Positions 1,351-15,445 of a DNA stretch of 15,445 nt are shown here, in pieces (the stretch's first letter is position 1; every line of letters begins with the position of its first letter). Made by a program: the position numbers and the translations under genes. Below the pieces are notes generated by a model. It had not been told where the DNA came from. It saw only the letters and a list, made by a program, of their open reading frames with translations, and searched no databases. The stretch is from Roseovarius sp. Its GTDB lineage: Bacteria > Pseudomonadota > Alphaproteobacteria > Rhodobacterales > Rhodobacteraceae. The stretch spans positions 1 to 15,445 of the forward strand of contig SLDH01000224.1 of the NCBI GenBank assembly GCA_007125415.1, in the 5' to 3' direction.

Positions 1351-1817
1351 CCGATATAGCCGACCTGCTCGCCATGGCCCGGGAAAAGGGTGTCATGATC
1401 GCCACGGCGGAAAGCTGCACCGGCGGCATGATCGCCACGCAACTGACAGATATTGCAGGTTCTTCTTCCGTTTTCGAGCGCGGCTTCGTCACCTATTCAA
1501 ACGCGGCGAAACGCGAGATGCTGGGCGTCTCCGCCGAAAGCCTCGCTCAGTTCGGTGCGGTCTCCGAACCTGTGGCGCGCGAAATGGCCGAAGGGGCGCT
1601 GGCACGCTCAGGCGCCGATCTTGCCGTCTCCGTTACCGGCATCGCCGGGCCCGGCGGCTCCGAGCACAAGCCCGAAGGCCGCGTCTGTTTCGGGCTGGCC
1701 ATGACGGGCCAAGCCGCGCGGACCGGTACGCGCGAGTTCGGCGCGCTTGGCCGTGGAAAGGTGCGTGCACTGAGCGCCCGACACGCGCTCTACCTGCTCG
1801 CGGAGGCGCTGCGCTGA
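1347..1817 (+). CDS. cinA: CinA C-terminal domain protein (nicotinamide-nucleotide amidase, PncC type)
   Basis: This 156-residue protein is a stand-alone CinA C-terminal domain. Characterised members deamidate nicotinamide mononucleotide to nicotinate mononucleotide, salvaging NMN released for example by NAD-dependent DNA ligase; it should act in the cytoplasm. The family block AESCTGG is at 21-27, with the presumed catalytic serine at 23, and VTGIAGPGG at 97-104 (within [10 protein letters not shown]) is the second signature. The length matches the domain alone; the N-terminal molybdopterin-binding-like domain of long CinA is absent. Translation starts with GTG at 1347 in a GTGA overlap with the ispDF stop, indicating coupling. 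It is followed after 19 nt by a convergent gene, and no hairpin terminator is visible between them. Confidence 0.93.
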
Positions 1818-1836
1818 CGCACGGGGCGCGGCTCGA

Positions 1837-2283
1837 TCAGCCGTGCAGTGTCTCGGCACGTTTTTCGAAGGCCCGGACGATGCGTTGCATGGCATCGTAG
1901 AAGAAGAGCCCCGCCGCCGATTGCAGCAATCTGTTGCGAAACTCGAAATCGACAAAGAACTCCACGTCGCAGCCCCCCTCGGCTTCACGGAATTTCCATG
2001 TGGAGATCATGTAGCGGAACGGGCCGTCGAGATACTCCGTCTCGATGATCCGATCCTCGGGCTTCAAGGCGACACGGCTGCCGAACCTTTCGCGAAAGAC
2101 CTTGAAGCTGATGACCAGATCCGCGAGCATGATTTCGCTGCCATCCTCCTGCGGCTCGCGGGTACGGATGCGCGCTGCGGCGGTCCAGGGGAGAAACTCC
2201 GGATAGGAGGCCACATCGGCGACCAGATCATACATCTGTTGCGGCGTGTAAGGGAGCCGGCGCGTTTCGGAATGAGTAGGCAT
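1837..2283 (-). CDS. COQ10/RatA-like START-domain protein
   Basis: This 148-residue protein belongs to the polyketide cyclase/START superfamily subgroup that includes mitochondrial COQ10 and bacterial RatA. The fold makes a hydrophobic cavity; COQ10 binds coenzyme Q and is needed for its proper use in respiration, whereas E. coli RatA was reported to inhibit ribosome subunit association. Visible hallmarks are the N-terminal RRLPYTPQQMYDLVADVASY (8-27) followed by PEFLPW, the central strands, and the C-terminal helix with LFFYDAMQRIVRAFEKRA. In alphaproteobacteria a quinone role is the more plausible one (inference). The ATG at 2283 has only a weak upstream AAAGATG. The gene converges on cinA and is divergent from the small genes at 2353-2597. 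Automated pipelines often call such proteins RatA toxins; I would not infer toxicity from the sequence. Confidence 0.9.
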   Translation of the reverse strand: MPTHSETRRLPYTPQQMYDLVADVASYPEFLPWTAAARIRTREPQEDGSEIMLADLVISFKVFRERFGSRVALKPEDRIIETEYLDGPFRYMISTWKFREAEGGCDVEFFVDFEFRNRLLQSAAGLFFYDAMQRIVRAFEKRAETLHG

Positions 2284-2352
2284 TACATCTTTATTTTACG
2301 TGACACTGGACCGCTGTTTCGTGGAGTATTGGCGGAAATTCAAGGGAAAGTC

Positions 2353-2421
2353 ATGACCGAGCGTTCGCATGTTTTCGATCAGATGGCCGGGGCCCATACC
2401 AGCGCTGGTGGCGGCGCATGA
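2353..2421 (+). CDS. Possible 22-codon leader ORF coupled to the next small gene
   Basis: ATG at 2353 is preceded by a good Shine-Dalgarno, AAGGGAAAG (2342-2350), and opens a 22-residue reading frame beginning MTERSHVFDQMAG. It ends at TGA 2419-2421, overlapping the ATG of the 59-residue gene (ATGA). It may be a leader peptide whose translation feeds the next start. The pattern M-x2-R-x2-V-F-D ... T-S-A-x-G-x-A resembles, from memory, the N-terminus of alphaproteobacterial UbiK/BMFP-type proteins, so it could alternatively be the truncated start of such a gene. With only 22 codons the call is weak. Confidence 0.35.
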   Translation: MTERSHVFDQMAGAHTSAGGGA

Positions 2422-2597
2422 GTCCGCATTGGTTTTTCCGCATGGCGCGTTGGGCGCGCAATCCGCCTTCTCCCCAGAAAGTGAAGTTCGTGTTGATCAT
2501 TGTGGGTATATGCTTTGCGATTGCGGCGGTGGAGCATTTCATCGGCTGGCCTGACGCGCTGAAAGTGGATCGCCGCGATTTTCGTTTCCGGCCCTGA
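2418..2597 (+). CDS. Small membrane-anchored protein, 59 residues
   Basis: ATG at 2418 opens a 59-codon frame ending with TGA at 2595-2597. The N-terminus is amphipathic and basic (HWFFRMARWARNPPSPQKVK, 4-23). A single hydrophobic segment follows at about 24-39 (FVLIIVGICFAIAAV), then HFIGWPDAL and a charged tail with DRRDFRFRP. This predicts one transmembrane helix with the positive N-terminus inside. The composition and the pattern of RW-x-R-N-P-P, one helix and GWP match a small hypothetical protein I associate with Rhodobacteraceae, from memory and unverified. It starts inside the stop of the 22-codon ORF and stops 5 nt short of the convergent MBL-fold gene. Function is unknown. Confidence 0.7.
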   Translation: MSPHWFFRMARWARNPPSPQKVKFVLIIVGICFAIAAVEHFIGWPDALKVDRRDFRFRP

Positions 2598-2602
2598 TGC
2601 GC

Positions 2603-3955
2603 TCAACCGGGGCGCACGCCCGCCCCCTTGCGCCGCAACCGCCGTTGAACGGCGATCAGCCGCTGCAGAAAGACCGCGATCAGGCGCGGCTCGAACACGA
2701 TGCCCGGACCGAAGCGGATCCCGAGATTGTTGAGTGTTTCGACGGAGAGTGATTTTGCGGCCCGCGCAAAGCCGCCCTCCTGTGTCTCCTCAAGGCAGCC
2801 ATTCACGGTGAGCGTGTCAAAGCCGAAGCTGTTCTGAAAGAGAAACCAGAGGGATTCGGAATGCATGGTCAGATGCGGCTCGTCCCTGACCTCTGCGAGT
2901 TCTCCTCGGGCAAGGTCGATCCGGAAGCGCCGGTCAATATCGTCGCATGCCACGATCACGGGTTGGAATACGCGGATCGGGCTGAACCTTTGCGCAAAGC
3001 GCATGAAGGCGCGGCTGTTATTGGCCGACACCCGTGTCAGACAGGCTTCAAAAGCGGCCAGAATGTCTTCTGTGGTCTTTGACTGAAACATCATCGGTGC
3101 CGCTTGCGCGGCCCTCGCATAGGCTGCATCCCAGAAGGTCAGCGCATCTTCCGTCATCTGCCTTGAAGGCTCCCCGGTAAAGACATCCCCCGGCTTCATC
3201 ACCTGCACGTCGAAAGGGGCCGCACGAAACCGCTCCACAACATCCCGCGGCGTGTTGGCGGCGTCATTGAGATAAGCGTTTCGCGTGTTGCCGAAGCGGA
3301 CGAAACTCGCAAAGGGTATCACCACGCGGGGCCTGAGCAGCCGTGCCTGCAGCGCGATATTGTCAAGCTTTTCGGCCGCCGCGGCCGCGCGCCAAGCGCG
3401 ATTATCCGGCCCGCCTTTCCATGCCGCATAGGAAAACTGCGTCAGCAACACGTCACAAGGCCCTGCTTTATCGAGAATTTCATCGGCCCGTCTTTCCGTG
3501 TCCACATGGCAGTCATTGAGGTTGAGCACATGCCGATCCGTCGTCTTGAACGAGGCCAGACTGTCATACCAGTCATCCTTGTAGCAGGTCAGACTGATCG
3601 CCCCGGCCTGACAGGGCTCCCCGAACGGCATTTCACGCAGCGTGATCCCTTGCTGCCGAACGAAGTTCGCGACGCGCTGATCCTTGATCTTCTGAAACCA
3701 GACCGGAATGTCGCGCGCGCGCAGCACCTCCGCGAAGGTTCGAAAGGAGGCAATCGAGAAATGATCGGGGTGCTCATGGCTGAGCCAGATATCGGTGACA
3801 CGCTCGAGAAGCCGCGCAACTGTGTCATCCGGCGTTTCGACAAGCAAGGACCAACCCTTGTGGAAGGCAGGCCCCGAATACCACGGATCTGTCAGAATGG
3901 CGGTGTCACCTTCAGAGATGAGAACAGAGGCGTGATTGACGAATTCGATACGCAT
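2603..3955 (-). CDS. MBL-fold metallohydrolase, CMP-Neu5Ac hydroxylase-like subgroup
   Basis: This 450-residue protein has an N-terminal metallo-beta-lactamase fold. VNHASVLI (6-13) and TDPWYSG (22-28) are the first strand-turn elements, HEHPDH at 60-65 is the HxHxDH metal motif, and LNLNDCHVD at 144-152 resembles the asparagine-aspartate-cysteine block seen in the MBL-like part of CMP-N-acetylneuraminate hydroxylases and UlaG-like proteins. The roughly 200 C-terminal residues carry no motif I recognise. No Rieske iron-sulfur domain is present, so sialic acid hydroxylation is not expected and the substrate is unknown. The start at 3955 has GGAG 8 nt upstream. A possible -10 TAATAT (minus strand, 3997-3992) with a poor -35 lies upstream. 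It faces the 59-residue gene tail-to-tail and is transcribed in the same direction as the beta-oxidation operon but is separated from it by about 400 bp. Confidence 0.85.
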   Translation of the reverse strand: MRIEFVNHASVLISEGDTAILTDPWYSGPAFHKGWSLLVETPDDTVARLLERVTDIWLSHEHPDHFSIASFRTFAEVLRARDIPVWFQKIKDQRVANFVRQQGITLREMPFGEPCQAGAISLTCYKDDWYDSLASFKTTDRHVLNLNDCHVDTERRADEILDKAGPCDVLLTQFSYAAWKGGPDNRAWRAAAAAEKLDNIALQARLLRPRVVIPFASFVRFGNTRNAYLNDAANTPRDVVERFRAAPFDVQVMKPGDVFTGEPSRQMTEDALTFWDAAYARAAQAAPMMFQSKTTEDILAAFEACLTRVSANNSRAFMRFAQRFSPIRVFQPVIVACDDIDRRFRIDLARGELAEVRDEPHLTMHSESLWFLFQNSFGFDTLTVNGCLEETQEGGFARAAKSLSVETLNNLGIRFGPGIVFEPRLIAVFLQRLIAVQRRLRRKGAGVRPG

Positions 3956-4354
3956 GCGGCGGCTCCGAGGGGCTCATCCCATCATGCCCTGATATTACGT
4001 GGGCTGTCATCCCCGGAATACTCGTGCCCGACAAGGCAGTTTCAGAAGGCTGCTGAAAGAGGGAGCCGACTCGAACTTTGCAGGGAAGCTGTTCTTCACC
4101 CATGGCCGGGTCGATGCGCAGAGGGCCGCGCCCGACCCTGGGTGGGCGCTTCCCCACGCTGGGGCTGCAGTGGTTTATGGTCGCCAAACACTTCCGAACT
4201 TTGAGCTGTTTGCACCGTCGCAATGCGCCCTCCCGGGAAGAGGGTCGGGCGCGGCCCGGGCTGGTCGCCCGGACCATGGCGTGGAGGGGTGGCGAAGAAC
4301 AATTTCCCGCCCTCTGTGTCAAAACCGACATGCGCAGGACTTTTTCGCAGCCTG
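3956..4354. other. 399-bp intergenic region between the MBL gene and fadJ
   Basis: I see no supported gene. The long open frames here are open because of GC richness. The left part (3956-4080) is the upstream region of the MBL gene and contains a small hairpin TTTCAG-N7-CTGAAA at 4040-4058 without a T run. The right part (about 4083-4310) is occupied by the dispersed repeat copy A. Directly after the fadJ stop on minus there is only a short GCCTGACAGGC palindrome spanning the stop codon and no classical terminator. Confidence 0.6.
4121..4310 (-). repeat. Dispersed intergenic repeat, copy A
   Basis: Read on minus, this stretch matches 15051-15256 read on +. The core 4134-4238 aligns without gaps to the complement of 15139-15243 with 27 mismatches in 105 positions (74% identity, counted by hand). 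Flanking homology on the fadJ side includes the hairpin CCGGGCGACCAGCCCGG and a GGAAA-x-TG-x-TTCGC block. Internal arms GGGCCGCGCCCGACCCT (4123-4139) and its exact complement (4241-4257) form a 17-bp inverted repeat. An outer pair at 4083-4097 and 4294-4308 matches at 13 of 15 positions. The copy begins about 45 nt downstream of the fadJ stop, in the same orientation as fadJ transcription. It could be a REP/MITE-like element or a structured RNA. Confidence 0.8.
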
Positions 4355-6550
4355 TCAGGCGGCTTTCGCGCCGCTGTCGAAGCGGGCATAGAAGCCCTCG
4401 TTCTTCTCGGCCATGTCGCGCAGCAGCGCGGGGCAGGCAAAGCGGGGGCCGAATCTTTCGGCCAGCTGATCGCAGCGCTCGGCCGCATAGGGCGTGCCGA
4501 TCATGTCGAGCCAGGAGAACGGCCCGCCCGACCATGGCGCGAAGCCCCATCCGAGGATCGCCCCCACATCGCCCTCGCGGATATCCTCCAGCACGCCTTC
4601 CTCCAGCGCGCGCACCGCTTCGAGCACCTGCGCGAACATCAGCCGGTGCTGCACCTCGTGCAGATCGGGCTGCGGGCTGGCCTGCGGATAGCGCCGGGCG
4701 AGCCCGGGCCAGTAGCCCTGCCGCTTGCCCTTCTCGTCATAGTCGTAGAAGCCGGCCCCCGCCTTGCGGCCCAGCCGACCCTCTTTCTCCATCCAGAAGA
4801 TCACCTCGTCCACCGCTTGATCGGGATAGGCCTCCCCCATCGCCGCCTTGGTGGCGCGGGCGATCTTCGCGCCCAGATCGATCGAGGTTTCATCGACGAG
4901 TTGCAGCGGCCCCACCGGGAAGCCAAGCTGCCGCGCGGCATTGTCAATGAGCGCCGGGGCCACGCCTTCGGCCACCATGCGAATCCCTTCGTTGATATAG
5001 GGGATGATGCAGCGGTTGGCATAGAAGAACCGCGCGTCATTGACGACGATGGGCGTCTTGCGGATCTGGCGCACATAGTCGAGCGCCTTGGCCACGGCGC
5101 GCGGGCCGGTGGCCTTGCCCTTGATGATCTCCACCAGCATCATCTTTTCAACCGGTGAAAAGAAATGGATGCCGATGAAGTTTTCGGGCGTGTCGCTTGC
5201 CCTGGCCAGTTCGGAGATGGGCAGGGTCGAGGTGTTGGTGGCGAAGATGCAGTCGGGCCCCACCGCCTTGAGCACGTCGCGCGTGACCTCGGCCTTGATT
5301 TTGGGGTCCTCGAACACCGCTTCGATGATCAGATCGCACCCTTCCAGTGCTGCATGATCCGTGGTGGCGGTGATGCGGGCAAGCGTCGCTTCCTTCTTCT
5401 CGGGCGTGGCCTTCCTGCGCTTGATCCCCTTGTCCATGTAATCGGCGGTATAGGCCTTGCCCTTGTCGGCCGCCGCCTGCTGCTGGTCGATGAGCACCAC
5501 CTCCATGCCCGCCATGGCCGACACTAGGGTGATGCCCGCGCCCATCATGCCGGCACCGATCACGCCCACCTTCTTCACCCTCTGGTCCGGCACATCGGGG
5601 CGGCTCGCGCCTTTTTCCAGCGCCTCCTTGTTGATGAAAAGCGAGCGGATCATGGCGCTGGAGGAAGGGTTCATCAGGATATTGGTGAACCAGCGCGCCT
5701 CGATCCTGAGGGCTGTGTCAAAGGGCACGAGCGCGCCTTCATAGACCGCCGAGAGGAGCGCCTTGGCGGCCGGAAAGGCGCCTTGTGTGCGGCCGTTGAC
5801 CATGGCCGAGGCGCCCACGAAGGTCATGAAGCCTTCGGGGTGATAGGGCGCGCCGCCGGGCATCCTGTAGCCCTTTTCATCCCAGGGTTTGACGATGGCC
5901 GGCTCCGAGAGCACCCAGGCGCGCGCCGCCTCGAGAAGCTGATCGGCGGGCACCACCTCATCGACAAGGCCCGCCCGCTTCGCGCCCGCCGGATCGTTCA
6001 GCTTGCCTTCGAGCAGGAGCGGCGAGGCCCCCATCGCGCCCAGCTTGCGCACCAGCCGTGTGGTGCCGCCCATGCCGGGAAAGATGCCCACCATGATCTC
6101 GGGCAGCCCGATCTTCGCCGATGCGTTTTCGGCGGCAAAGATGCGGTGACAGGCCAGCGGTATCTCCAGCCCGATCCCCAGCGCCGTGCCGGGCAGGGCG
6201 GCGGCGATGGGTTTGCCACCCTTGTTCCTGTCGTCCATCCCGGCGCGTTCGATATTGCGCAGGATGGCATGGGTGCGCATCAGCCCCTCGAAAAGCCCCC
6301 GTGCCGGATCGTCGCCCGCCTCTTCCTTCATCCGGGCGATGACGTTGAGATCCATGCCCCCGGCAAAGCTGCCTTCCTTGCCGGAGGTGATCACGATGCC
6401 TTTCACCGCGTCATCCGCCAGTGCGTCGTCAATGAGGCTGTCGAGCAGCGGCCAGGCCTCCATGGACATCACGTTCATGGATTTTCCCGGAACGTCCCAG
6501 GTGATGACGGCCGCGCCATCATCGTCTTTCTTCATGGTGAAATCGGTCAT
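4355..6550 (-). CDS. fadJ: FadJ/FadB-type enoyl-CoA hydratase/3-hydroxyacyl-CoA dehydrogenase
   Basis: This 731-residue multifunctional enzyme carries out the second and third steps of beta-oxidation: hydration of enoyl-CoA and NAD-dependent oxidation of 3-hydroxyacyl-CoA. The crotonase domain occupies about 1-200, with GMDLN at 65-69, GLEIPLACHRI at 127-137 containing E129, and GLPEIMVGIFPGMGGT at 148-163 containing E151; these are the two acid/base glutamates of the family. The NAD-binding domain starts near 326 with VGVIGAGMMGAG (328-339), and H462 in IGIHFFSPVEKMM is the catalytic histidine of the dehydrogenase. The C-terminal dehydrogenase domains run from about 507 to 720 (NRCIIPYINEG, then GWGFAPWSGGPF at 667-678). 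Its ATG overlaps the cupin stop by 4 nt (ATGA). It is the last gene of the operon and is followed by repeat copy A. Confidence 0.96.
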   Translation of the reverse strand: MTDFTMKKDDDGAAVITWDVPGKSMNVMSMEAWPLLDSLIDDALADDAVKGIVITSGKEGSFAGGMDLNVIARMKEEAGDDPARGLFEGLMRTHAILRNIERAGMDDRNKGGKPIAAALPGTALGIGLEIPLACHRIFAAENASAKIGLPEIMVGIFPGMGGTTRLVRKLGAMGASPLLLEGKLNDPAGAKRAGLVDEVVPADQLLEAARAWVLSEPAIVKPWDEKGYRMPGGAPYHPEGFMTFVGASAMVNGRTQGAFPAAKALLSAVYEGALVPFDTALRIEARWFTNILMNPSSSAMIRSLFINKEALEKGASRPDVPDQRVKKVGVIGAGMMGAGITLVSAMAGMEVVLIDQQQAAADKGKAYTADYMDKGIKRRKATPEKKEATLARITATTDHAALEGCDLIIEAVFEDPKIKAEVTRDVLKAVGPDCIFATNTSTLPISELARASDTPENFIGIHFFSPVEKMMLVEIIKGKATGPRAVAKALDYVRQIRKTPIVVNDARFFYANRCIIPYINEGIRMVAEGVAPALIDNAARQLGFPVGPLQLVDETSIDLGAKIARATKAAMGEAYPDQAVDEVIFWMEKEGRLGRKAGAGFYDYDEKGKRQGYWPGLARRYPQASPQPDLHEVQHRLMFAQVLEAVRALEEGVLEDIREGDVGAILGWGFAPWSGGPFSWLDMIGTPYAAERCDQLAERFGPRFACPALLRDMAEKNEGFYARFDSGAKAA

Positions 6551-7020
6551 TTCATGTCTCCCTTGTAGGGTGTGCCGTCCTTGTGGGTGAAGTCGTTGCC
6601 ATCGGCGGTGATGGTCACCTTGAGGTCGGTATCGCTGTACCAGCAGGTGTCGGTCCCGGTGCGTGTGCCGATCACGAGAAAGCGCGCTTCCTGCCCGCTT
6701 CGATTGATGAAGTGATGGCCATCGGGTACGCTGGCCTTGAACGTCGCGCAGTCACCCGCGCGCATCTCATGCGCGCCCGCATCGTCGATCAGGGTGCAGG
6801 TGCCCTTGATCACCATCACGAATTCATCCTGTGTTTCGTGCCAGTGGCGCAGCGAGGATTTTGCGCCCGGTGCCAGGATCACGATATTCGCGCCGAACTG
6901 CGTCAGCCCGCCGGCATCGCCCACGCGCAGGCTGCTCCGGCCAGCCATTTCGACAGCATGGGGGGCGGGATAGATGGACCCGGTGCGTGGCACGAGCGCG
7001 GAGAGATCGATCTTCGGCAT
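6547..7020 (-). CDS. Cupin-domain protein inside the beta-oxidation operon
   Basis: This 157-residue protein has a single cupin barrel. RHWHETQDEFVMVIKG at 58-73 is the first cupin motif with metal ligand candidates H59, H61 and E66; RAGDCATFKASVPDGHHF at about 87-104 is the second motif, with H102 or H103 as the fourth ligand. The pattern is that of a small cytoplasmic metal-binding or sugar/aldehyde-binding cupin. The C-terminal tail (CWYSDTDLKV ... GTPYKGDMK) is what related proteins use to close the barrel, but I cannot name the reaction. It starts within the thiolase stop (1-nt overlap, TGATG) and its own stop overlaps the fadJ start by 4 nt, so it is translationally locked between two core enzymes. 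No signal peptide is seen. Confidence 0.85.
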   Translation of the reverse strand: MPKIDLSALVPRTGSIYPAPHAVEMAGRSSLRVGDAGGLTQFGANIVILAPGAKSSLRHWHETQDEFVMVIKGTCTLIDDAGAHEMRAGDCATFKASVPDGHHFINRSGQEARFLVIGTRTGTDTCWYSDTDLKVTITADGNDFTHKDGTPYKGDMK

Positions 7021-8231
7021 CAGACCCGCTCGATGATGGTCGCGGCCCCCATGCCCGAGGCGATGCAGAGCGTGGCAAGCCCCACCTCCCGGTCGCGGCG
7101 CTCGAGCTCGTCAAGCAGCGTGCCGATGATGATGGCGCCCGTGGCCCCCAGCGGGTGGCCCATGGCAATCGCCCCGCCATTCACGTTCACAAGCTCCGGG
7201 TCCACCCCGAAGGCCTGCTGGAACCGCAGGACAACGGCGGCAAAGGCCTCGTTCACCTCGAACAGATCGATATCGCCGATCTCCATGCCCGCATCGGCAA
7301 GGATTTTCTCGGTGGCGGGCACGGGGCCCGTCAGCATGATCGTGGGGTCGGTGCCGATCTTGCAGGTCTGGCGGATGCGCGCGCGCGGCGTGAGCCCCCA
7401 CCGCTCGCCAAAGGCTTTCGAGCCGATCAGAACGCCTGCGGCACCATCCACGATGCCCGAACTGTTGCCCGCGTGATGGACATGCTCGATCTGCTCCAGA
7501 TGCGGGTATTTGAGCTTCGCCACCGCATCGAAGCCCGGCATCACCTCCCCCATCTGCAGGAACGAGGCGTTGAGCGCGCCCAGGGTCTGCATGTCGGTGC
7601 CCGGGCGCATGTATTCGTCACGCTCGAGGATCGTCAGCCCGTTCTGATCGGTGACGGGAGTGACGGAGCGCGCAAAGCGCCCCTCGTCCCAGGCGGCCTT
7701 GGCGCGGCGCTGGCTTTCGACCGCCAGCGCATCGGCCTCGTCGCGGCTGAAGCCATATTCCGTGGCGATGATATCGGCGGCAATCCCCTGCGGCACGAAA
7801 TACCGCTCCATGGCCACATCGGGGTCCACGGCGATGGCGGCCCCGTCGCTGCCCATGGCCACGCGGCTCATCATCTCGACACCGCCCGCGATATAGGCCT
7901 CGCCCGCCCCGGCGCGCACCTGATTGGCCGCAAGGTTCACCGCTTCCATGCCGCTGGCGCAGAAGCGGTTGATGGAAAGCCCCGGAATGCGCTCGTCAAG
8001 CCCGGAGGCCAGCACGGCGCTGCGCGCCAGGCAGCCGCCCTGCTCCTTGACTTGCGTGACATTGCCCCAGATCACATCTTCCACGGCATGCCCTTCCAGT
8101 GCGTTGCGCGCCCTGAGGCTGTCCAGCACCTGCGCCGATAGCCGCAATGCGGTCACCTCATGCAGCGCCCCGTCCTTGCGGCCCTTGCCGCGCGGGGTGC
8201 GAATGGCGTCGAAAATATAGGCGTCGGTCAT
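7020..8231 (-). CDS. fadA: Acetyl-CoA C-acyltransferase (thiolase)
   Basis: This 403-residue thiolase performs the thiolytic cleavage that closes the beta-oxidation cycle, releasing acetyl-CoA. All three catalytic blocks are present: C91 in NRFCASGMEAVN (88-99) is the acyl-accepting nucleophile, H359 in NGGAIAMGHPLGATGA (351-366) activates it, and C389 in LCIASGMG (388-395) is the second cysteine. VNEAF at 326-330 is the usual asparagine-containing block. I choose ATG at 8231 because AAGGAG stands a few bases upstream on minus and the N-terminus then matches the family (MTDAYIFDAIRTPRGKG); the frame extends 10 codons further to a TTG at 8261 without a ribosome site. The stop shares one base with the cupin start. 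A biosynthetic role in acetoacetyl-CoA formation is possible, but the operon context favours degradation. Confidence 0.95.
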   Translation of the reverse strand: MTDAYIFDAIRTPRGKGRKDGALHEVTALRLSAQVLDSLRARNALEGHAVEDVIWGNVTQVKEQGGCLARSAVLASGLDERIPGLSINRFCASGMEAVNLAANQVRAGAGEAYIAGGVEMMSRVAMGSDGAAIAVDPDVAMERYFVPQGIAADIIATEYGFSRDEADALAVESQRRAKAAWDEGRFARSVTPVTDQNGLTILERDEYMRPGTDMQTLGALNASFLQMGEVMPGFDAVAKLKYPHLEQIEHVHHAGNSSGIVDGAAGVLIGSKAFGERWGLTPRARIRQTCKIGTDPTIMLTGPVPATEKILADAGMEIGDIDLFEVNEAFAAVVLRFQQAFGVDPELVNVNGGAIAMGHPLGATGAIIIGTLLDELERRDREVGLATLCIASGMGAATIIERV

Positions 8232-8308
8232 TTCTCTCTCCTTCTCAGCCCGCGTCGGCAAGGCTGCAATCTCTTGGGTTTCAACGGTATCTGCTGCAAC
8301 GCACGCCC

Positions 8309-8372
8309 CGGGACGCTCAAAGCCAAGGCCCGGGTTTCTTCTTGGCAGAAATACCCCCCGCGGAGCGTCCCG
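8309..8372. repeat. Nested inverted-repeat element in the acyl-CoA dehydrogenase to thiolase gap
   Basis: The outer arms CGGGACGCTC (8309-8318) and GAGCGTCCCG (8363-8372) are exact complements. Inside them GCCAAG (8322-8327) and CTTGGC (8341-8346) pair around a 13-base loop. The whole could fold as a two-level hairpin in the operon mRNA. No T run follows on minus, so it does not look like an intrinsic terminator. It may be an mRNA-processing or stabilising element, or a REP-like repeat. The inner string GGTATTTCTGCCAAGAAGAAA (minus strand, split over the inner stem) resembles short strings I remember near gene ends in Rhodobacterales; that recollection is unverified. Confidence 0.6.
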
Positions 8373-8403
8373 AAGCTGCCATGATGCGCGGCATCCGCCA
8401 TGG

Positions 8404-9540
8404 TCAGAACGCCCTCGAAATCAGCTCTTTCATGATCTCGTTGGTCCCGCCATAGATGCGCTGCACCCGGGCATCGGCCCACATCTCGGCGATGTCATAT
8501 TCGGCCATGTAGCCATACCCGCCATGAAGCTGCACACATTCATCGAGCACCTCGCCTTGCGTGTCGGTGATGAAATACTTGGCCATCGCCGCCCTCTCCA
8601 CCGAGAGCGCGCCTTCCAGATGTTCGGTGATGCAGGCATCAAGGAAAGCACGGCAGACGGCGGCCTTGGTCTGGCATTCAGCGAGCTTGAAGCGGGTGTT
8701 CTGAAAATCGAGGATCGGTGTGCCGAAGGCCCGGCGCTCCTTGCAATAGGCGATGGTGCGCGCCACGCCGCCTTCGATCGCGCCTTGCGCGCCACAGGCG
8801 ATGACCAGCCGCTCCTGCGGCAATTGCTGCATCATCTGGTAAAAGCCGCGCCCCTCCTCGCCGCCCAGGATGTTCTCGGGCGCAATTTCCACATTGTCGA
8901 AGAAAAGCTCCGAGGTGTCCGCGGCGTGATTGCCCAGCTTTTCCAGATTGCGCCCGCGCGAGAAGCCTGTCGCGCCATCGGTCTCGACCACCACCATGGA
9001 AATGCCGCGCGCGCCCGCGCCGGGGTCCGTCTTGGCGGCCACGATGATCAGATTGGCATGCTGGCCATTGGTGATGAAGGTCTTCTGGCCGGAGAGGCGA
9101 TAGGAATTGCCCTCGCGGACCGCCCTTGTCTTCAGCCCCTGCAGGTCCGAGCCTGCGCCGGGCTCGGTCATGGCGAGCGCGCCCACAAGTTCTCCGGAGG
9201 CCATGCGCGGCAGCCAGCGCTGTTTTTGCTCTTCCGAGCCATAGGCGAGGATGTAATGCGCCACGATGGGCGAATGGATCGGATTGCCCCAGCTGGCGAT
9301 ATTGGCGCGGGCCTGTTCGATGCAGATCACCGCCTCATGGCCGAAATCGCCCCCCGCGCCGCCATATTCCTCGGGCACCGAGGGGCAGAGCAGGCCAAGC
9401 GCGCCGGCCTGCTGCCAGATCTCGCGGTCCATGATGCCCGCACGGCGCCAGCGCGCAAAATGCGGCCGCCATTCGCGGTTGATGAAATCGGCGGTCATCT
9501 CGCCGAGCATCTGATGTTCTTCCGTCATCCAGGAGGACAT
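8404..9540 (-). CDS. Acyl-CoA dehydrogenase, 378 residues, IVD/LCAD-like
   Basis: This flavoprotein oxidises an acyl-CoA to the 2-enoyl-CoA and passes electrons to ETF. The domains are the N-terminal helical part (1-115), the middle beta domain with [13 protein letters not shown] (123-135) and GQKTFITNG (151-159), and the C-terminal helical domain with [14 protein letters not shown] (269-282), QLHGGYGY (337-344) and [16 protein letters not shown] (361-376). The position used for the catalytic glutamate in medium-chain enzymes is glycine here (YGGTNE), while E243 in QQLPQERLV aligns with the alternative catalytic glutamate of isovaleryl- and long-chain acyl-CoA dehydrogenases. The start at 9540 ([10 protein letters not shown]) has CGGAG about 10 nt upstream. 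The frame stays open upstream to 9714, but that region overlaps the small gene. It is in the operon, 13 bp after that gene. Confidence 0.94.
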
Positions 9541-9553
9541 GGGTGCGGCTCCG

Positions 9554-9766
9554 TTATTTCTTGCGGGCTTCGAGTTCCGAATTGAAAAGGCGAATGCGCT
9601 GCATGAACGCCCCTTCATCCATGATGCTGTCGAAATTCTCGAAAACGAAGGACAGCGCCTCGCCCTCATCGAGCCCCGCCTCATCGGCAAAGCGGCGCAG
9701 GCGGCGGTAGCCATCCTCGCTCATGGCGACGGTGAAGCGGCGGGTCAGGCGCAGGCGTTTGGGCAT
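9554..9766 (-). CDS. Small putative ribbon-helix-helix protein, 70 residues
   Basis: The gene lies between two acyl-CoA dehydrogenase genes with gaps of 11 and 13 bp and has GGAG about 9 nt before the ATG, so it looks genuinely expressed. The N-terminus is basic ([11 protein letters not shown]), followed by a possible beta strand RFTVAMS (10-16), a helix [15 protein letters not shown] (17-31), a turn, and a second helix starting near 34 ([12 protein letters not shown]). This order of strand, helix, helix is what ribbon-helix-helix (Arc/CopG-like) DNA-binding proteins show. The remaining 25 residues form a charged tail. If correct, it could regulate its own operon or be an orphan antitoxin-like repressor; no toxin gene is adjacent. 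A structural accessory to the dehydrogenases is the alternative. The fold call is inference from the pattern only. Confidence 0.75.
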
Positions 9767-9777
9767 CGGGCGGCTCC

Positions 9778-11556
9778 TCAGAACTGATCGGCGGTCAGGG
9801 CCATCACAGTATCCGCGCCGCTTTCGATCCGGGCAAGATGCATCTTCGTGGCCGGCAGGCGGCGCGCCATGTAGTAGCGCCCGGTGGCGAGCTTCGCCTC
9901 ATGAAAGGCGCGGTCCGTGGTGCCGTTGCCCAGTGCCTCATGACAGGCCTTGCCCATATGCGCCCACATCAGCCCGAGGCAGACATGCCCGAAAAGATGC
10001 ATGAAATCGTAAGATCCCGCCAGCGCGGCATTGGGGTTCTTCATGCCGTTCTGCATGAAGAACATGCCCGCCTGCTGCAGGTCTTTCGAGGCCGCCTTCA
10101 ACGGGTCGAGGAAATCGGCCCTGAGCGCCTCGTTGTCTTCGTTCTCCTTGAGGAAGGTCTTGACCGTCTCGAAGAAGGCCATGACATGCTTGCCGCCATC
10201 CTGCGCGAGCTTGCGGCCCACCAGATCGAGCGCCTGCACGCCGTTCGCCCCTTCATAGATCATCGCGATCCGCGCATCGCGGGCATATTGGGACATGCCC
10301 CATTCCTCGATATAGCCATGCCCGCCATAGATCTGCTGGGCGAGGATGGTCATGTCGAAGCCCTCATCGGTCAGAAACCCCTTGATGACCGGGGTGAGCA
10401 GGCTGACCATGCCTTCGGCCTGCGCATCCTTGCCGCGATGCGACTGGTCGATCATCTGGCTGCCACAGAGCAGAAAGGCGCGCGCGCCCTCGATGAAGCT
10501 CTTCTGGTCCATCAGGCTGCGGCGGATATCGGGATGCACGATCAGCGGGTCGGCCGGGCCATCGGGGTTTTCAGCGCCGGTCACGGCGCGGCCCTGCAGG
10601 CGGTCCCTGGCATAGGCCAGCGCGTTCTGATAGGCGATCTCGGCCTGCGCGAGGCCCTGCATCCCTACGCCGATGCGCGCCTCGTTCATCATGGTGAACA
10701 TGGCGCGCATGCCCTTGTGCATCTCGCCCAGCAGATAGCCCGTGGCGCCATCGTAATTCATCACGCAGGTGGCATTGCCGTGAATGCCCATCTTCTCTTC
10801 GATCTTGCCGCAGGAGACGCCATTGCGCGCCCCCAGCGAGCCGTCTTCATTCACCAGAAATTTCGGCACGATGAAGAGCGACACACCCTTGATGCCCTCC
10901 GGCCCGCCGGGGATCTTGGCGAGCACGAGGTGGATGATGTTCTCGGCCATGTCATGCTCGCCCGAGGAGATGAAGATCTTCTGCCCGGTGATGGCATAGC
11001 TGCCATCGTCCCGCGGCTCGGCCTTCGTGCGCATGAGCCCCAGATCGGTGCCGCAATGGGGCTCGGTGAGGTTCATGGTGCCGGTCCAGTCACAGGCGGT
11101 CATCCGCGGCAGGTAGGTGGCCTTCTGCGCGTCCGTGCCATGGGCGAGAATGGCGCTTGCGGCGCCATGGGTGAGGCCCTGATACATGGTGAAGGCCTGA
11201 TTGGCGCCCGAGAACATCTCGCCCACGGCCGTGCCCATGATATAGGGCATGTTCTGCCCGCCGAATTCCTCCGGCAGGTCGATCCCGGGCCAGCCGCCCG
11301 CCTTGACCTGCTCGAACGCCTCGCGGAAGCCCTCGGGCGTGCGCACCACGCCGTTCTCCAGCCGGCAGCCTTCGGTGTCGCCCACGGTGTTCAGCGGAGC
11401 GAGGACCTCGGAGGCCAGCCTGCCCGCCTCATCGAGCACCGCGGAGGTGAACTCGGGGTCAAGCTCGGCATAGCCCGGTGTATCGGTCTGGCTGATCCTG
11501 AGCACATCGTGCAGCACGAATTGCATGTCGCGGGTCGGGGGGGTGTAGCTGGGCAT
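9778..11556 (-). CDS. FadE/DmdC-type acyl-CoA dehydrogenase with C-terminal extension
   Basis: This 592-residue flavoprotein belongs to the large acyl-CoA dehydrogenase class with an extra C-terminal domain; members include FadE-type enzymes and the methylmercaptopropionyl-CoA dehydrogenase DmdC of roseobacters. Landmarks are the N-terminal [28 protein letters not shown] (94-104), [13 protein letters not shown] (161-173) at the flavin/substrate site, [16 protein letters not shown] (191-206), [13 protein letters not shown] (408-420) and [17 protein letters not shown] (433-449), where E435 is the presumed catalytic base. The region after about 455 is the C-terminal extension. Fatty acyl-CoA oxidation is the safest function; the operon has the full spiral but no DmdB or DmdD candidate, so a DMSP role is not supported here. 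Start at 11556 with AGGGAG upstream; the frame runs 32 codons further without support. Confidence 0.94.
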
Positions 11557-11597
11557 CGGGGTCTCCCTGTCGGTGCGTGTCTCGGGGGCCGCTGCAA

Positions 11598-11999
11598 TTA
11601 TCCGGCGGCGCGGCGGGGTTTCTTGAAATCGCCGAGTATCTTGAACCCCCATCGCATCTGCTCGCGCAGGTCGCTGATGGCGCTGTCGAGTTCCGCGCGC
11701 TGGCGCTCCATTTCAGCCAGGCGGCGTTCGGCCAGCGCATAGGCGGTGGCGATCTGTGTCTCCTGTCGGTCACTACGATCATAGAGATCGAGCAACTGGC
11801 GCAGCTCCTCAAGGCTGAAGCCGAAGCGCTTGCCCCGCAGAATGAGTTTCAGCCGCGCGCGGTCACGTCGGGTGAAGAGCCGCTTCTGGCCCACGCGCCG
11901 GGGCGAAAGCAGTTCCTTCGCCTCATAGAAGCGCAAGGTGCGTGGCGTTACGCCGAAAGTGTCGCACATTTCGCGAATGGTCATCAGATCGTCGTTCAT
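11598..11999 (-). CDS. MerR-family regulator 1
   Basis: This 133-residue regulator has a MerR winged helix-turn-helix at about 6-75 ([20 protein letters not shown] from 6, then wing and [20 protein letters not shown]), followed by a coiled coil (about 85-118, heptad-like [21 protein letters not shown]) for dimerisation and a short basic tail KKPRRAAG. It lacks the cysteine arrangement of metal-sensing MerR proteins. The short effector-less architecture resembles LiuR-type regulators of acyl-CoA catabolism, so it probably controls this operon (inference). Start at 11999 has TGAGGACCGAG just upstream; a longer frame to 12059 lacks a ribosome site. It lies 41 bp upstream of the FadE-type gene and is a paralogue of MerR 2. 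Confidence 0.92.
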
Positions 12000-12080
12000 C
12001 TCGGTCCTCAAGCAGGCGGATAGCATGGTTTCATGACACCCACCTGTGACTGTCTCCACGGGATTACAACGGGACGCGTG

Positions 12081-12123
12081 GTTTACGTAACCCGGACGTC
12101 ACGTCACTTTCAGGGTGACGTAA
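12081..12123. promoter_or_regulatory. ACGT-rich dyad cluster upstream of MerR 1, candidate MerR operators
   Basis: TTACGTAA (12083-12090) is a perfect palindrome. ACGTCAC (12101-12107) and GTGACGT (12115-12121) form a perfect inverted repeat with a 7-bp spacer, extending to 8 of 9 with the next outer pair. The region lies about 80-120 bp upstream of MerR 1 on minus. MerR-family LiuR sites are known to be ACGT-containing palindromes, so binding by one or both MerR proteins is plausible. No promoter hexamers stand out. Confidence 0.5.
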
Positions 12124-12197
12124 GATCAAGAAAGGTAAATGTGCGAACGGGGTAATTTTCAAACCCGCCGACTTGCCCTTGACGGCCGATCCGCGCG

Positions 12198-12566
12198 CTA
12201 CTCGAGCGATTTCGCGCTTTCGTCGCGCACGGCCTTCAGCTCCGAGATGGAGCGCTCGAGCTGCTCCTTCTGGCTTTGCAATTCCACCAGTTGCCGGTCG
12301 GCAAGATCGATCCAGCTGCGCAACTGGGATTGCGTGCCTTCCTTCTCGTAGATGAGCAGCCATTGGCGGATTTCCTCGAGGGCGAATCCCCAGCGCCGCC
12401 CGCGCAGGATCAGCGTCAGGCGTGCCACCTCGCGCGGGCCGTAGAAGCGCGAGCGGCCTTCGCGCTCGGGCTGGAGCAATTCGATATACTCGTAATAGCG
12501 AAGGGTGCGCGCGGTCACTTCGAATTTTTCGCACATTTCCTTGAAGGACAGGCGTGTTTCGCTCAT
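12198..12566 (-). CDS. MerR-family regulator 2
   Basis: This 122-residue protein shares its plan with MerR 1: winged helix-turn-helix at about 6-75 (SFKEMCEKFEVTARTLRYYE from 7, then RLTLILRGRRWGFALEEIRQW), and a coiled coil at about 84-112 (ADRQLVELQSQKEQLERSISEL). The blocks EMC, VT-x-RTLR-x-YE, L-x-LILRG-x-R-x-GF-x-LEE-x-RQ are common to both, so the pair looks like a tandem duplication or a heterodimer set. No metal-binding cysteine cluster is present. ATG at 12566 is preceded by GGAGGG, about 10 nt away; the frame stays open to 12716, but that part lies in the divergent control region. Its TAG is followed by a 198-bp gap before MerR 1. It could control both the beta-oxidation operon and the divergent thioesterase genes. 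Confidence 0.9.
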   Translation of the reverse strand: MSETRLSFKEMCEKFEVTARTLRYYEYIELLQPEREGRSRFYGPREVARLTLILRGRRWGFALEEIRQWLLIYEKEGTQSQLRSWIDLADRQLVELQSQKEQLERSISELKAVRDESAKSLE

Positions 12567-12602
12567 GTCAGGCTTCCCTCCACCTTCGAGCCTAAGCCGA
12601 TC

Positions 12603-12686
12603 TGCCCTGCAGGGCAACAGGGAGCAGCGCCCGCATGCGGGCGCGGGGCCTCTTGCAGTGCCGCCGCTTTGCGCCCCATAAGGGGC
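12603..12686. promoter_or_regulatory. Three dyads in the MerR 2/thioesterase divergent region
   Basis: TGCCCTGCAGGGCA (12603-12616) and GCGCCCGCATGCGGGCGC (12627-12644) are perfect palindromes of 14 and 18 bp. GCCCC-ATAA-GGGGC (12673-12686) is a hairpin within a wider TTTGC...GCAAA context. All lie in the 142 bp between two divergent starts. They may be operators or RNA hairpins in the two 5' leaders. None is followed by a T run. Confidence 0.5.
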
Positions 12687-12708
12687 AAATGACGGATGGG
12701 GGCCAGCG

Positions 12709-13143
12709 ATGAGCACGCAGGATCAAGACCGGAAAGAAGCGCTGATCCGCCAGTTTTTCGGCGCGCTGCCCCATGCGAAGGCGCTGGGCATGGAGGTGCT
12801 CGACGTGGGCGCGGGGCAGGCCACCTTCGCGATGGCCTATGATCCGCGTTTCATCGGCGATCCGGATACGGGCGTCATTCATGGCGGGGCCGTCTCGGCG
12901 CTGATGGATACCTGTTGCGGGGCGGCGGCGATGAGCCATCCGGACAATCCCGGCACCAGCGCCACGATCGACCTGCGGATCGACTACATGCGCCCGGCCA
13001 CCCCCGGACAGGCGATCAGGGCGGTGGCGGAATGTTTTCATGTCACCCGCTCGGTGGCCTTCGTGCGGGCCCATGCGGTGGACGGCGATGACGCGCGGCC
13101 CGTGGCCACCGCCACCGGCACCTTCACGGTGGAGGCCCCCTGA
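12709..13143 (+). CDS. PaaI-type hot-dog thioesterase 1
   Basis: This 144-residue protein has the PaaI/YdiI hot-dog signature: HGGAVSALMDTCCGAAA at 58-74, with the HGG turn (58-60) and D67 on the hot-dog helix where these enzymes place an acidic catalytic residue. The second half carries the strands TSATIDLRIDYMRPA and a closing TATGTFTVEAP. Such enzymes hydrolyse acyl-CoA (aromatic or medium-chain) in the cytoplasm. Its neighbourhood, opposite the beta-oxidation operon and next to a second thioesterase, suggests release of stalled or toxic acyl-CoA. Start at 12709 has GGGGG about 9 nt upstream. The TGA shares one base with the next ATG (TGATG). Confidence 0.92.
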   Translation: MSTQDQDRKEALIRQFFGALPHAKALGMEVLDVGAGQATFAMAYDPRFIGDPDTGVIHGGAVSALMDTCCGAAAMSHPDNPGTSATIDLRIDYMRPATPGQAIRAVAECFHVTRSVAFVRAHAVDGDDARPVATATGTFTVEAP

Positions 13144-13652
13144 TGGCGCGCCCCCGCCCGGAGCCCGTGCAGGTCGTGAAGCAACGGCGCGATGCCGCGC
13201 TGAAGGCGCTGGTGGAGGGGGTGCCCTATATCCGCTTTCTGGGGGTCGAGTTCGAGCGGCGGGGGGACGAGTTGACAGCCGTGATGCCGTTCTCCGACAC
13301 GCTCATCGGCAACCCGGTGCTGCCGGCCCTGCATGGCGGGGCGACAGCGGCCTTTCTGGAGATGACCGCCATCATCGGGCTCAGCTGGTCGCTCCTGTGG
13401 AGCGAGATCGAAAGCGGCGCGCTGGAGGTGGAGGCGCTGGCCGCGGGCAAGCTGCCGCGCCTGCCCAAGACCGTGGGTTTCACCGTCGATTACCTGCGCA
13501 CCGGGTTGCCGCGTGACGCCTATGCGCGCGCGCAGGTGGCGCGCTCGGGGCGCCGCTATGCCTCGGTGCATGTCGAAGCCTGGCAGGACAATCGCGCGCG
13601 CCCCTTCGCGCAGGCGACGGGGCATTTCGTGATGCCGCGCCAGGATGGCTGA
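13143..13652 (+). CDS. PaaI-type hot-dog thioesterase 2
   Basis: This 169-residue protein is a second, diverged hot-dog thioesterase. LHGGATAAFLEMTAI at 63-77 gives the HGG turn (64-66) with E73 at the acidic helix position, where the first thioesterase has D67. KTVGFTVDYLRTGLPRDAYARAQV (about 109-132) is the central strand pair. An insertion of about 20 residues (WSEIESGALEVEALAAGKLP) separates the helix from these strands, making it longer than its neighbour. The different acid suggests a different substrate range, or a two-subunit enzyme with thioesterase 1 (speculation). It starts inside the stop of gene 1 and its last 8 bases overlap the MATE gene, so the three are translationally coupled. 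Confidence 0.9.
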   Translation: MARPRPEPVQVVKQRRDAALKALVEGVPYIRFLGVEFERRGDELTAVMPFSDTLIGNPVLPALHGGATAAFLEMTAIIGLSWSLLWSEIESGALEVEALAAGKLPRLPKTVGFTVDYLRTGLPRDAYARAQVARSGRRYASVHVEAWQDNRARPFAQATGHFVMPRQDG

Positions 13653-14970
13653 CACCGCCGCCGCGCAAGGCCCGATCACCCATGCCCGCGTGCTCAGGAT
13701 CGCCGGGCCCATCGTGCTGGCCAATATCAGCGTGCCGATCCTCGGTGCGGTGGATACCGGCGTGGTGGGCCAGTTGGGCGAGGCCGCGCCCATCGGTGCG
13801 GTGGGCATCGGATCGGTCATTCTGACGGCGATCTACTGGATGTTCGGCTTCCTGCGCATGGGCACCACCGGCCTGACCAGCCAGGCGCATGGTGCGGGCC
13901 GGACCGGCGAGGTGGCGGCCCTGCTGACCCGGGCGCTGATCATCGCCGCCGCCGGCGGGGTGGCGCTCGTCGCCCTGCAATGGCCGATCTTCGCCGGGGC
14001 CTTCATGCTGGCACCCACAAGTGACGCCGTGGAAGAGCTTGCGCGCGCTTACATGACGATCCGGATCTGGAGCGCGCCGGCAATGATCGCCACTTTCGGG
14101 ATCACCGGCTGGCTCATCGCGCTGGAGCGCACCCGCGCCGTTCTTGCCCTGCAACTGTGGATGAACGGGTTGAATGCGGCGCTGAGCGTCTGGTTCGTGC
14201 TGGGCCTGGGCTGGGGCGTCGAGGGGGTGGCGCTGGCCACGTTCCTGGCGGAATGGAGCGGGCTTGCCATGGGGCTCTGGCTCTGCCGTGCCGCGCTGCG
14301 CAAGCCGGCCGCCACGGACTGGCCACGGGTATTCGAGCCCGAGGCGCTCAAGCGGATGGGCACGGTCAATGGCCATATCCTGCAACGCTCCTTCATGCTC
14401 GAAGGGATCGTCGTGTCCTTCCTTTTTGTGGGCGCGCGTTTCGGCGATGTGACCCTGGCGGCCAATCAGGTTCTGTTGCAGTTCCTGCATTTCACCGGCT
14501 ATGCGCTCGACGGGTTCGCCTTTGCCGCCGAGGCGCTTGTGGGGCAGGCGGTGGGCGCGCGCGCCCGTGCCCGGCTCAGACAGGCGGCGATCCTTGCCAG
14601 TCTCTGGGGGCTGATGATCACGGCGCTCATGGCGCTCGCCTTCTGGTTTGCGGGCGGATGGATCATCGACATCATGACCACCTCTCCCGAGGTGCGCAGC
14701 GCGGCGCGCAGCTACCTCGTGTGGATGGCGCTGGCGCCTTTGCTGGGCCTGAGCGCCTGGATGCTCGACGGGATCTTCATCGGTGCCACGCGCACCCGCG
14801 ACATGCGCGACATGATGGCGGTCTCGCTGGTGATCTATATCCTCGCGGTGCTGGCGTTGATCCCGCTTCTGGGCAATCACGGGCTCTGGGTGGCGCTGCT
14901 CATCTCCTATGTGGCGCGCGGCCTGACCCTTGGCGCGCGCTATCCCGCGCTCGAGCGCGCTGCCGCGTGA
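13645..14970 (+). CDS. MATE-family efflux transporter (DinF/NorM type)
   Basis: This 441-residue inner-membrane protein has about twelve hydrophobic segments in two similar halves, the usual MATE architecture and length. Early landmarks are IAGPIVLANISVPILGAVDT (19-38), with D37 in the VDTGVVGQLG block, and MGTTGLTSQAHGAG (72-85), both typical of the DinF branch. The second half holds AANQVLLQFLHFTGYALDGF and AEALVGQAVGARA. MATE proteins export cationic drugs or metabolites using a proton or sodium gradient; the substrate cannot be read here. ATG at 13645 lies in an ATGGCTGA overlap with thioesterase 2, so the exporter is produced with the thioesterases. Repeat copy B follows about 80 nt downstream of the stop. 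Confidence 0.93.
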   Translation: MADTAAAQGPITHARVLRIAGPIVLANISVPILGAVDTGVVGQLGEAAPIGAVGIGSVILTAIYWMFGFLRMGTTGLTSQAHGAGRTGEVAALLTRALIIAAAGGVALVALQWPIFAGAFMLAPTSDAVEELARAYMTIRIWSAPAMIATFGITGWLIALERTRAVLALQLWMNGLNAALSVWFVLGLGWGVEGVALATFLAEWSGLAMGLWLCRAALRKPAATDWPRVFEPEALKRMGTVNGHILQRSFMLEGIVVSFLFVGARFGDVTLAANQVLLQFLHFTGYALDGFAFAAEALVGQAVGARARARLRQAAILASLWGLMITALMALAFWFAGGWIIDIMTTSPEVRSAARSYLVWMALAPLLGLSAWMLDGIFIGATRTRDMRDMMAVSLVIYILAVLALIPLLGNHGLWVALLISYVARGLTLGARYPALERAAA

Positions 14971-15378
14971 GCCTTCGGCCCGGGCGCTAACGCCGGATCC
15001 GGGTTAACAGGATGCTGAGAAGGTGCCTGACACCCCCCTTCAGGCGCGTTGAGCCGGAAAACTGCTTCGCGCCACGCTTGCCCCATCGTCTCGCCCGGGC
15101 GACCAGCCCGGGCGGCGCCCGACCCTCCCCCGGGCCTCCCCCGGGAGTGCGCATTGCAACATTGCAAGAAGCACAACGGTCAGAAGGTCTTGGCTGGCAT
15201 AGAGCACAGTCGCCCCAGCGTACCAAGGCGCCCACCCAGGGTCGTGCGCCACCCTCTTCTATCGCGTGTCGCATTTGATCGGGTTCACCTCTTTCCGATG
15301 ACAGGGCATGCGAACGCCCGGGCGGGGATGAAACCGATTTGGCGCAACATGCTGTGGCGCGCCGCAGCCCCCGGCGGA
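14971..15378. other. 408-bp gene-free region after the MATE gene
   Basis: I see no supported gene. Directly after the stop there is a bulged hairpin around 14981-14996 (CGGGCG-CTAA-CGCCGG) with no T run. The region 15051-15256 is repeat copy B. The stretch 15257-15378 contains only a short GCCCGGGC palindrome near 15318 and nothing I can name. Confidence 0.55.
15051..15256 (+). repeat. Dispersed intergenic repeat, copy B
   Basis: This copy reads on + and matches copy A read on minus (core 15139-15243, 74% by hand count, no gaps). It retains the hairpin CCGGGCGACCAGCCCGG (15095-15111) and the inner inverted repeat: GGCGCCCGACCCT (15114-15126) against AGGGTCGTGCGCC (15238-15250), with one mismatch in 13. 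Like copy A it lies downstream of a gene stop in the same orientation as that gene, here the MATE transporter. It differs from A by a longer C/G-rich run around 15126-15146 and by lacking a clear outermost arm pair. Confidence 0.8.
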
Positions 15379-15445
15379 TCACAGCCCCTTATGCACCCAT
15401 CGGGCAGAGCCCGCCATGACCAGCACCGTCAACAGGATCCGCACC
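15379..15445 (-). CDS. Possible C-terminal end of an unknown protein (partial, runs off the window)
   Basis: On minus a frame is open from the right edge to TGA at 15381-15379, encoding a 21-residue hydrophobic-then-basic tail (RILLTVLVMAGSARWVHKGL at its end). This reads like the last transmembrane helix and cytoplasmic end of a membrane protein, but 22 codons are too few to be sure. An opposing + frame from ATG at 15411 also runs to the edge and cannot be excluded. No family can be named. Confidence 0.35.
   Translation of the reverse strand, partial: VRILLTVLVMAGSARWVHKGL

Follow-up and report, generated by a model that had tools for sequence, protein, structure and literature searches.

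A stretch of 15,445 nucleotides from the draft genome of Roseovarius sp. (GenBank assembly GCA_007125415.1, contig SLDH01000224.1, positions 1 to 15,445 of the forward strand; here called the window) contains two related noncoding sequences, one at the end of a fadJ gene and one downstream of a gene for a MATE protein. Both sites are probably insertions of a nonautonomous, IS5-type miniature inverted-repeat transposable element (MITE) that carries a separate, widespread palindromic core with a putative role at the 3′ ends of genes. The original prediction, made from the window alone, had described the pair as a dispersed noncoding repeat, possibly a structured family; a search of the genome and its relatives, together with a covariance model, bore this out: intergenic copies are numerous, and their stems covary. 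It overlooked the MITE layer, which consists of terminal inverted repeats (TIRs), a YTAR target, and a 4-bp duplication, and which explains why copies sit at stop codons.

Two copies in the window

Compared within the window, copy 1 and copy 2 were 74.2% identical over 163 bp (E = 2.6e-25), in agreement with the homology proposed originally. The remaining details of that comparison were also reproduced: a 105-bp core with 27 ungapped mismatches, distributed 9, 9, and 9 over the codon positions, and a hairpin and an inverted repeat found in both copies. The gene names are plausible, fadJ having enoyl-CoA hydratase and 3-hydroxyacyl-CoA dehydrogenase domains and the second gene a MatE domain. 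The positions of the main features are as follows.

4046 to 4354, minus strand: MITE copy 1, 309 bp, with degenerate IS5-type TIRs at 4046-4059 and 4341-4354
4042 to 4045, no strand: target-site duplication TCAG left of copy 1, the same 4-mer being present on both sides
4355 to 4358, no strand: target-site duplication TCAG right of copy 1; CTGA on the minus strand, in which TGA is the fadJ stop codon
4122 to 4260, minus strand: structured core of copy 1
4255 to 4272, minus strand: hairpin H0, CCGGGCGACCAGCCCGGG, adjacent to the core and sharing positions with the outer end of arm I
4241 to 4257, minus strand: arm I, GGGCCGCGCCCGACCCT
4225 to 4234, minus strand: arm I′, GGGAGGGCGC
4140 to 4149, minus strand: arm II′, GCGCCCACCC, which pairs with I′
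4123 to 4139, minus strand: arm II, AGGGTCGGGCGCGGCCC, which pairs with I
15008 to 15263, plus strand: MITE copy 2, its left end at 15008-15021 after the target TTAA at 15004-15007
15110 to 15254, plus strand: structured core of copy 2, with an extra 10 nt in the C-rich bulge
15110 to 15126, 15143 to 15152, 15228 to 15237, and 15238 to 15254, plus strand: arms I, I′, II′, and II of copy 2, read from the sequence

The TIRs of copy 1 pair with two mismatches per end. Its core scored 106 bits against covariance model R1 (see below), of which it is one of the 43 building sequences, and had RNA folding z scores of −3.88 on the core strand, with the same fold as the family, and −2.97 on the opposite strand. 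Both copies had been placed 45 to 80 nt after a stop codon; with the full element delimited, the end of copy 1 touches the fadJ stop codon and copy 2 starts 37 nt past the MATE stop. A simple scan agreed that classical terminators are lacking, with 0 sites at copy 2 (0.4 expected) and one weak site at copy 1, inside the element and on the strand opposite fadJ (0.8 expected).

No right end of copy 2 was recognized; its right arm enters a second, different short palindromic repeat from about position 15264. This adjoining repeat (15264-15352) gave 42 listed matches in the host genome, with 40 of 55 candidates scored, and at least seven matches (contigs C13, C58, C93, C216, C217, C263, and C275) lay no more than 100 nt from either a MITE end or a core. 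Elsewhere in the window, two neighboring genes share DNA that is 65% identical over 182 bp (11791-11972 versus 12358-12539); this pair is probably an old tandem duplication, and we take the genes to resemble MerR-type regulators.

The outer layer is probably an IS5-type MITE

To judge from its sequence, the outer element is a MITE: its TIRs match those of full-length IS5-family elements, its ends adjoin YTAR, and copy 1 is flanked by a duplication. The draft host genome (G000), 87% complete, comprises 3.09 Mb on 410 contigs. With copy 1 and copy 2 as DNA queries, 115 and 118 candidates were detected in it, the best 40 of each being scored, and the matches merged into 64 regions above 50 bits in the part of the genome that was fetched. 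Other genomic copies align to copy 1, in whole or in part, at 75 to 91% identity. Their common ends were first noticed when copies were aligned together with their flanks; this alignment mixed orientations and served only as a lead, with no counts taken. The end motif CAGGCTGCTGAAAA, allowing at most two mismatches, then occurred 150 times in the host genome, compared to six times for the reversed control. Among 25 two-ended elements, 10 were 309 to 316 bp long and the others 138 to 397 bp, the common length being about 312 bp. Shortened elements of 138 to 215 bp that keep both ends were seen on contigs C328, C141, C401, and C281. In the fetched sequence, YTAR adjoined 36 of 77 ends against a background of 0.089% of tetramers (binomial P = 1e-88, with shared descent ignored).

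YTAR is the target of IS5 elements. A plasmid element annotated as belonging to the ISRssp10 family (Roseovarius) has the structure TTAA, CAGGCTGCTGAAAAAGTC...GACTTCTTCAGCAGCCTG, TTAA; its left end equals the well-kept MITE ends over 18 nt and its right end differs by one base. Two related plasmid elements are flanked by TTAG/TTAG and TTAA/TTAA. An IS5 transposase acting in trans would move the MITE. A plasmid or phage origin was also considered: matches to copy 1 in blastn were found in four of 72,556 plasmid records and in none of 50,697 phage records; of two plasmid copies inspected, one lay between convergent genes, and the other, a short match, lay between tandem genes.

MITE insertions are often found at stop codons because two of these, TAA and TAG, are part of YTAR and the third, TGA, occurs in near-matches to it. 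Among 73 ends with enough flank, the stop of a converging reading frame lay within 150 nt in 35 and exactly at the end in 11, counting open frames with a low score cutoff. Target duplication would leave a stop codon at the end of the gene after insertion; in the window, the fadJ TGA lies within the duplicated CTGA. Elsewhere in the genus, the 420 nt that follow fadJ were inspected at 29 loci and contained neither MITE ends nor a pair of arms I and II (five had arm I alone, with one mismatch). These relatives are too distant for a flank match and for use as empty sites.

The inner layer is a core found across the Rhodobacteraceae

The MITE encloses a separate and more widespread palindromic core of about 135 nt, which is mostly found without MITE ends. 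When 60 relatives were searched with copy 1, partial matches were obtained in 19 other genomes, all of the same genus, and 22 of 23 such loci inspected had no nearby MITE end, the remaining one (L107) having one end-like match. A pattern scan of named genomes, in which arms I, I′, and II′ were fixed and arm II and the outer stem left free, matched at least 117 stretches in records from Rhodobacteraceae genera, unassigned proteobacterial metagenome-assembled genomes, and one record labeled Oceanobacillus; six matches too close to a locus edge were excluded. The core in the Oceanobacillus-titled record, which lies outside the family (L179, 6495-6691), is suspected to reflect mislabeling or contamination. 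Of 121 named cores, 8 had MITE ends on both sides, 1 on one side, and 112 on neither; the 8 comprise 7 of the 8 cores of HGW-Alphaproteobacteria-6 and 1 of Rhabdonatronobacter.

Covariance model R1, built from 43 cores, had matches in 107 of 150 genomes of the family, taken at one genome per genus, with up to 22 candidates scored per genome (10 genomes reached 22). Rhodobacteraceae is used here in the broad sense, which NCBI now splits into Paracoccaceae and Roseobacteraceae. In a class-wide sample of 114 genomes (up to 29 candidates scored in each), R1 matched the host, one other family member, and 1 of the remaining 112, the last with a single weak match (E = 5.6e-6); kinship was shown for 21 of these 112. 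Rfam gave no match to the window at the gathering score, and in three relatives it gave four subthreshold matches (up to E = 1), none covering the core.

Comparison of individual genomes indicates that several kinds of end have been joined to the core, because MITE-like units in G089 have the same IS5-type ends, the core in G131 lies inside a 240-bp unit whose ends are different (like GCGCGGA...TCCGCGC), and copies in G126 and G067 share no sequence outside the core and its hairpin.

Stems of the core covary

In the core, the I:II and I′:II′ helices enclose a loop of about 4 to 90 nt; in short forms, the arms are kept and the loop is a few nucleotides. Given 79 cores (alignment A1, 79 of 99 diverse cores picked from 161), RNAalifold chose the long-range I:II and I′:II′ pairing. 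In a second alignment of 43 cores (A2), 94.6% of cells were paired in this structure, and 8 pairs and 57 cells carried changes in both partners, a level reached by 0 of 500 shuffles; slid versions of the structure were 36 to 50% paired. These alignments indicate that the outer pairing is preserved by paired changes. Because the search pattern fixed I, I′, and II′, the constancy of these arms among named cores is partly by construction. The local alternative (I:I′ and II′:II) had one both-side-changed cell in A2, where the alignment mishandles a one-base shift between sequence types.

A hairpin like H0 adjoins many other cores too, and H0 shares bases with the outer stem. In L319, L362 (G208), and L122, an extra hairpin within the C-rich bulge creates a three-way junction.

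The gap between cysS and cimA is a recurrent site

In a clustering of the genes that adjoin 149 core records, the most recurrent site was the gap between cysS and cimA (nine loci), and a second recurrent site was common to three genomes of the genus (L107, L109, and L110); most cores adjoin other genes. We examined the cysS-cimA gap in 130 of 140 family genomes having cimA. In 40 of them (30 of 100 plus 10 of 30), R1 had a match no more than 440 nt upstream of cimA, and one further match, in G122, lay at 517 nt. These 40 cores had no fixed orientation, 14 having the same direction as cimA and 26 the opposite one. Only five were full length, four of them in the cimA direction, and the other 35 were mostly short forms of 64 to 75 nt, in which the arms make one hairpin with a loop of a few nucleotides. 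A cis-regulatory RNA of fixed orientation upstream of a single gene is not supported by these orientations or by the location of most cores elsewhere.

By eye, 11 full-length copies in the cimA direction (five of the genus and six others) start about 19 to 43 nt after the cysS stop, and several of them have parts of the spacer in common. They form ortholog set A6, which excludes L122, with its hairpin insertion in the bulge, and the oppositely oriented L370 and L102. Both partners had changed in six stem pairs of A6 (0 of 500 shuffles), though pair types were no more numerous than in shuffles (416 of 500). For H0 plus the local hairpin, there were three such pairs and six such cells (8 and 0 of 500 shuffles, respectively). 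Because they occupy the same place and orientation in several genera and show paired stem changes, some cysS-cimA copies look long-lived, with stems maintained, although the alignment provides modest evidence.

Upstream of cimA in G104, the copy L343 has an outer stem that is largely different and longer and still paired. In several genera without the core, this gap (e.g., in L397, L408, and L438) contains another recurrent palindrome, GGGGGGCTGTCTGCCCCCC followed by CCCCGAGGATATTT, and a third palindrome, GTCCCGGGCTTGACCCGGGAC, was also seen there. The gap is thus also a tolerant place, since other genera hold other palindromes in it.

Gene context and competing explanations

With genes called by our own codon-usage script (78% coding, trained on the same loci), none of the 121 named cores was intragenic; 54 lay between convergent, 43 between tandem, and 5 between divergent genes, and 19 were at locus edges. 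Element-free gaps at the same loci were 41 convergent, 227 tandem, and 94 divergent. Cores were therefore enriched in convergent gaps (54 of 102 versus 41 of 362; Fisher P = 1e-17) and depleted in divergent ones (P = 5e-7), values that are overstated because many cores come from single genomes. Transcribed from either side, the core would fold into a very stable hairpin, which may mark, protect, or insulate 3′ ends, chiefly between convergent genes. A role of this kind has been proposed for enterobacterial repetitive intergenic consensus (ERIC) repeats and bacterial interspersed mosaic elements (BIMEs). A 3′-end or insulating role of the core is what we infer.

Several observations weigh against a MITE carrying a core that acts at 3′ ends. 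Identical 4-bp flanks were found at only 2 of the 25 two-ended elements, copy 1 (TCAG/TCAG) among them, and flanks with at most one mismatch at 9 of 25, not clearly more than the 5.9 expected from shuffled flanks (P = 0.09); most copies look old. A PF05598 search of the 87% complete host genome detected no intact transposase with these ends, finding a broken transposase gene with one similar end on contig C241 and a fragment on C233. Pararhodobacter oceanensis contributes 22 of the 121 cores and HGW-Alphaproteobacteria-6 another 8, and neutral survival in convergent gaps would yield the same context. Shared polarity with the preceding gene had been taken as a pointer to an RNA role at the 3′ end, yet in the 43 tandem cases elsewhere, orientation was the same in 24 and opposite in 19 (P = 0.54), and agreement between the two window copies is what chance would give. 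Of 118 gene ends, 19 had a terminator-like site ahead of the element, compared to 240 of 2,360 length-matched controls (P = 0.045). Of the 57 both-side-changed cells in A2, 33 belong to two neighboring pairs by which the two main sequence types differ, and 12 belong to a single other pair; independent covariation events are therefore few; five of the six both-side changes in A6 come from the single sequence L343. Stem mismatches on the core strand (16 G·U versus 50 A·C) gave no sign of selection on RNA, with a few columns and related genomes making up most of the counts.

One alternative is a purely selfish repeat, whose hairpin would be needed only for copying or moving and whose position at gene ends would be left over from purifying selection. 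We lean against this explanation while granting it a real chance. It is favored by sets of similar copies inside single genomes, by units with different ends around one core (IS5-type for G000 and G089, those of the 240-bp unit for G131, and none visible for G126 and G067), and by the absence of polarity in tandem gaps and at cysS-cimA. It fits less well with the full-length cores that, in several genera, occupy one position in the cysS-cimA gap and point the same way, or with the paired stem changes there, mostly from one sequence. Its moving enzyme is not the Y1 transposase associated with repetitive extragenic palindromic (REP) sequences (RAYT) in most high-copy genomes; this was the only enzyme sought. 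Movement of a BIME/REP family by RAYT is itself very improbable. The paired inverted palindromes, intergenic distribution, and high copy number do fit the REP/BIME-like family named as a possibility originally, but Y1_Tnp was absent from 17 of 20 high-copy genomes, including the host, whereas 3 of 20 genomes that lack model matches do have it; REP with RAYT was rejected on its absence from these 17.

A bidirectional terminator or insulator between convergent genes, with local hairpins I:I′ serving one side and II:II′ the other, is rather unlikely. The enrichment in convergent gaps agrees with it, as do arms able to form local hairpins, the TTTT that follows I′ in many type 2 copies, and the classical terminator hairpin that most of the 29 fadJ relatives have, by eye, where the host has its MITE. 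However, our in-house scan found a terminator-like site in only 37 of 121 cores on the forward strand and 17 of 121 on the reverse, local pairing has a single paired change in A2, and terminator-like sites beside the element are not depleted. The last result also speaks against the general terminator role considered originally, and the element as a replacement terminator was not supported, the trend being the opposite. The core could instead be a family-wide regulatory switch between two helix sets that share bases and both show paired changes (H0 plus the local I:I′ hairpin, or the long I:II stem), kept at long-lived sites such as cysS-cimA and spread by unrelated miniature transposons that picked it up more than once; this we consider unlikely. 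A protein-coding remnant, suggested by the frame reported to be open in both copies, is almost certainly wrong given the even spread of mismatches over codon positions, the covarying stems, and a spacer variable in both sequence and length. We retain as probable the reading of both window sites as MITE insertions that carry a separate core.

Relation to known repeats and significance

The outer element resembles IS5-family MITEs (partner type ISRssp10) in its TIRs, YTAR-type target, 4-bp duplication at copy 1, noncoding content, and tens of copies, and differs from them by its structured core, which is independent of the MITE in most sampled genera. The ERIC repeats, also called intergenic repeat units (IRUs), are inverted repeats of about 130 nt, intergenic and spread over one bacterial family. 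Likened by description only, the core is similar in length, inverted repeat, intergenic location, restriction to one family, and unexplained mobility; it differs in host family, in its full and tiny-loop forms, and in its C-rich bulge and H0. REP/BIME systems with RAYT are alike in having paired inverted palindromes at gene ends; the core differs in its unit of about 135 nt and in the lack of Y1_Tnp from most high-copy genomes. ERIC/IRU repeats of Enterobacteriaceae are treated in PMC2229807 and PMC2759123, and a REP unit size of 20 to 40 nt is given in PMC3733652. A term search of PMC3733652, PMC2267715, and PMC10969869 returned no Rhodobacterales name, and literature searches, whose reach excluded most subscription papers, found no published description of this repeat. 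MITEs and ERIC/BIME repeats are thus known kinds; new is a family-wide covarying core that is MITE-borne in some lineages and alone in others.

A well-studied family thus has, in 107 of its 150 sampled genera, a covarying structured repeat without an Rfam match, and one covariance model allows gene ends to be annotated across the Rhodobacteraceae. The repeat may account for some contig breaks, several host contigs ending in a copy. Through the target choice of IS5-type elements, a miniature transposon can insert into a stop codon with the stop retained. If the core is functional, it would be a structured element spread by transposons.

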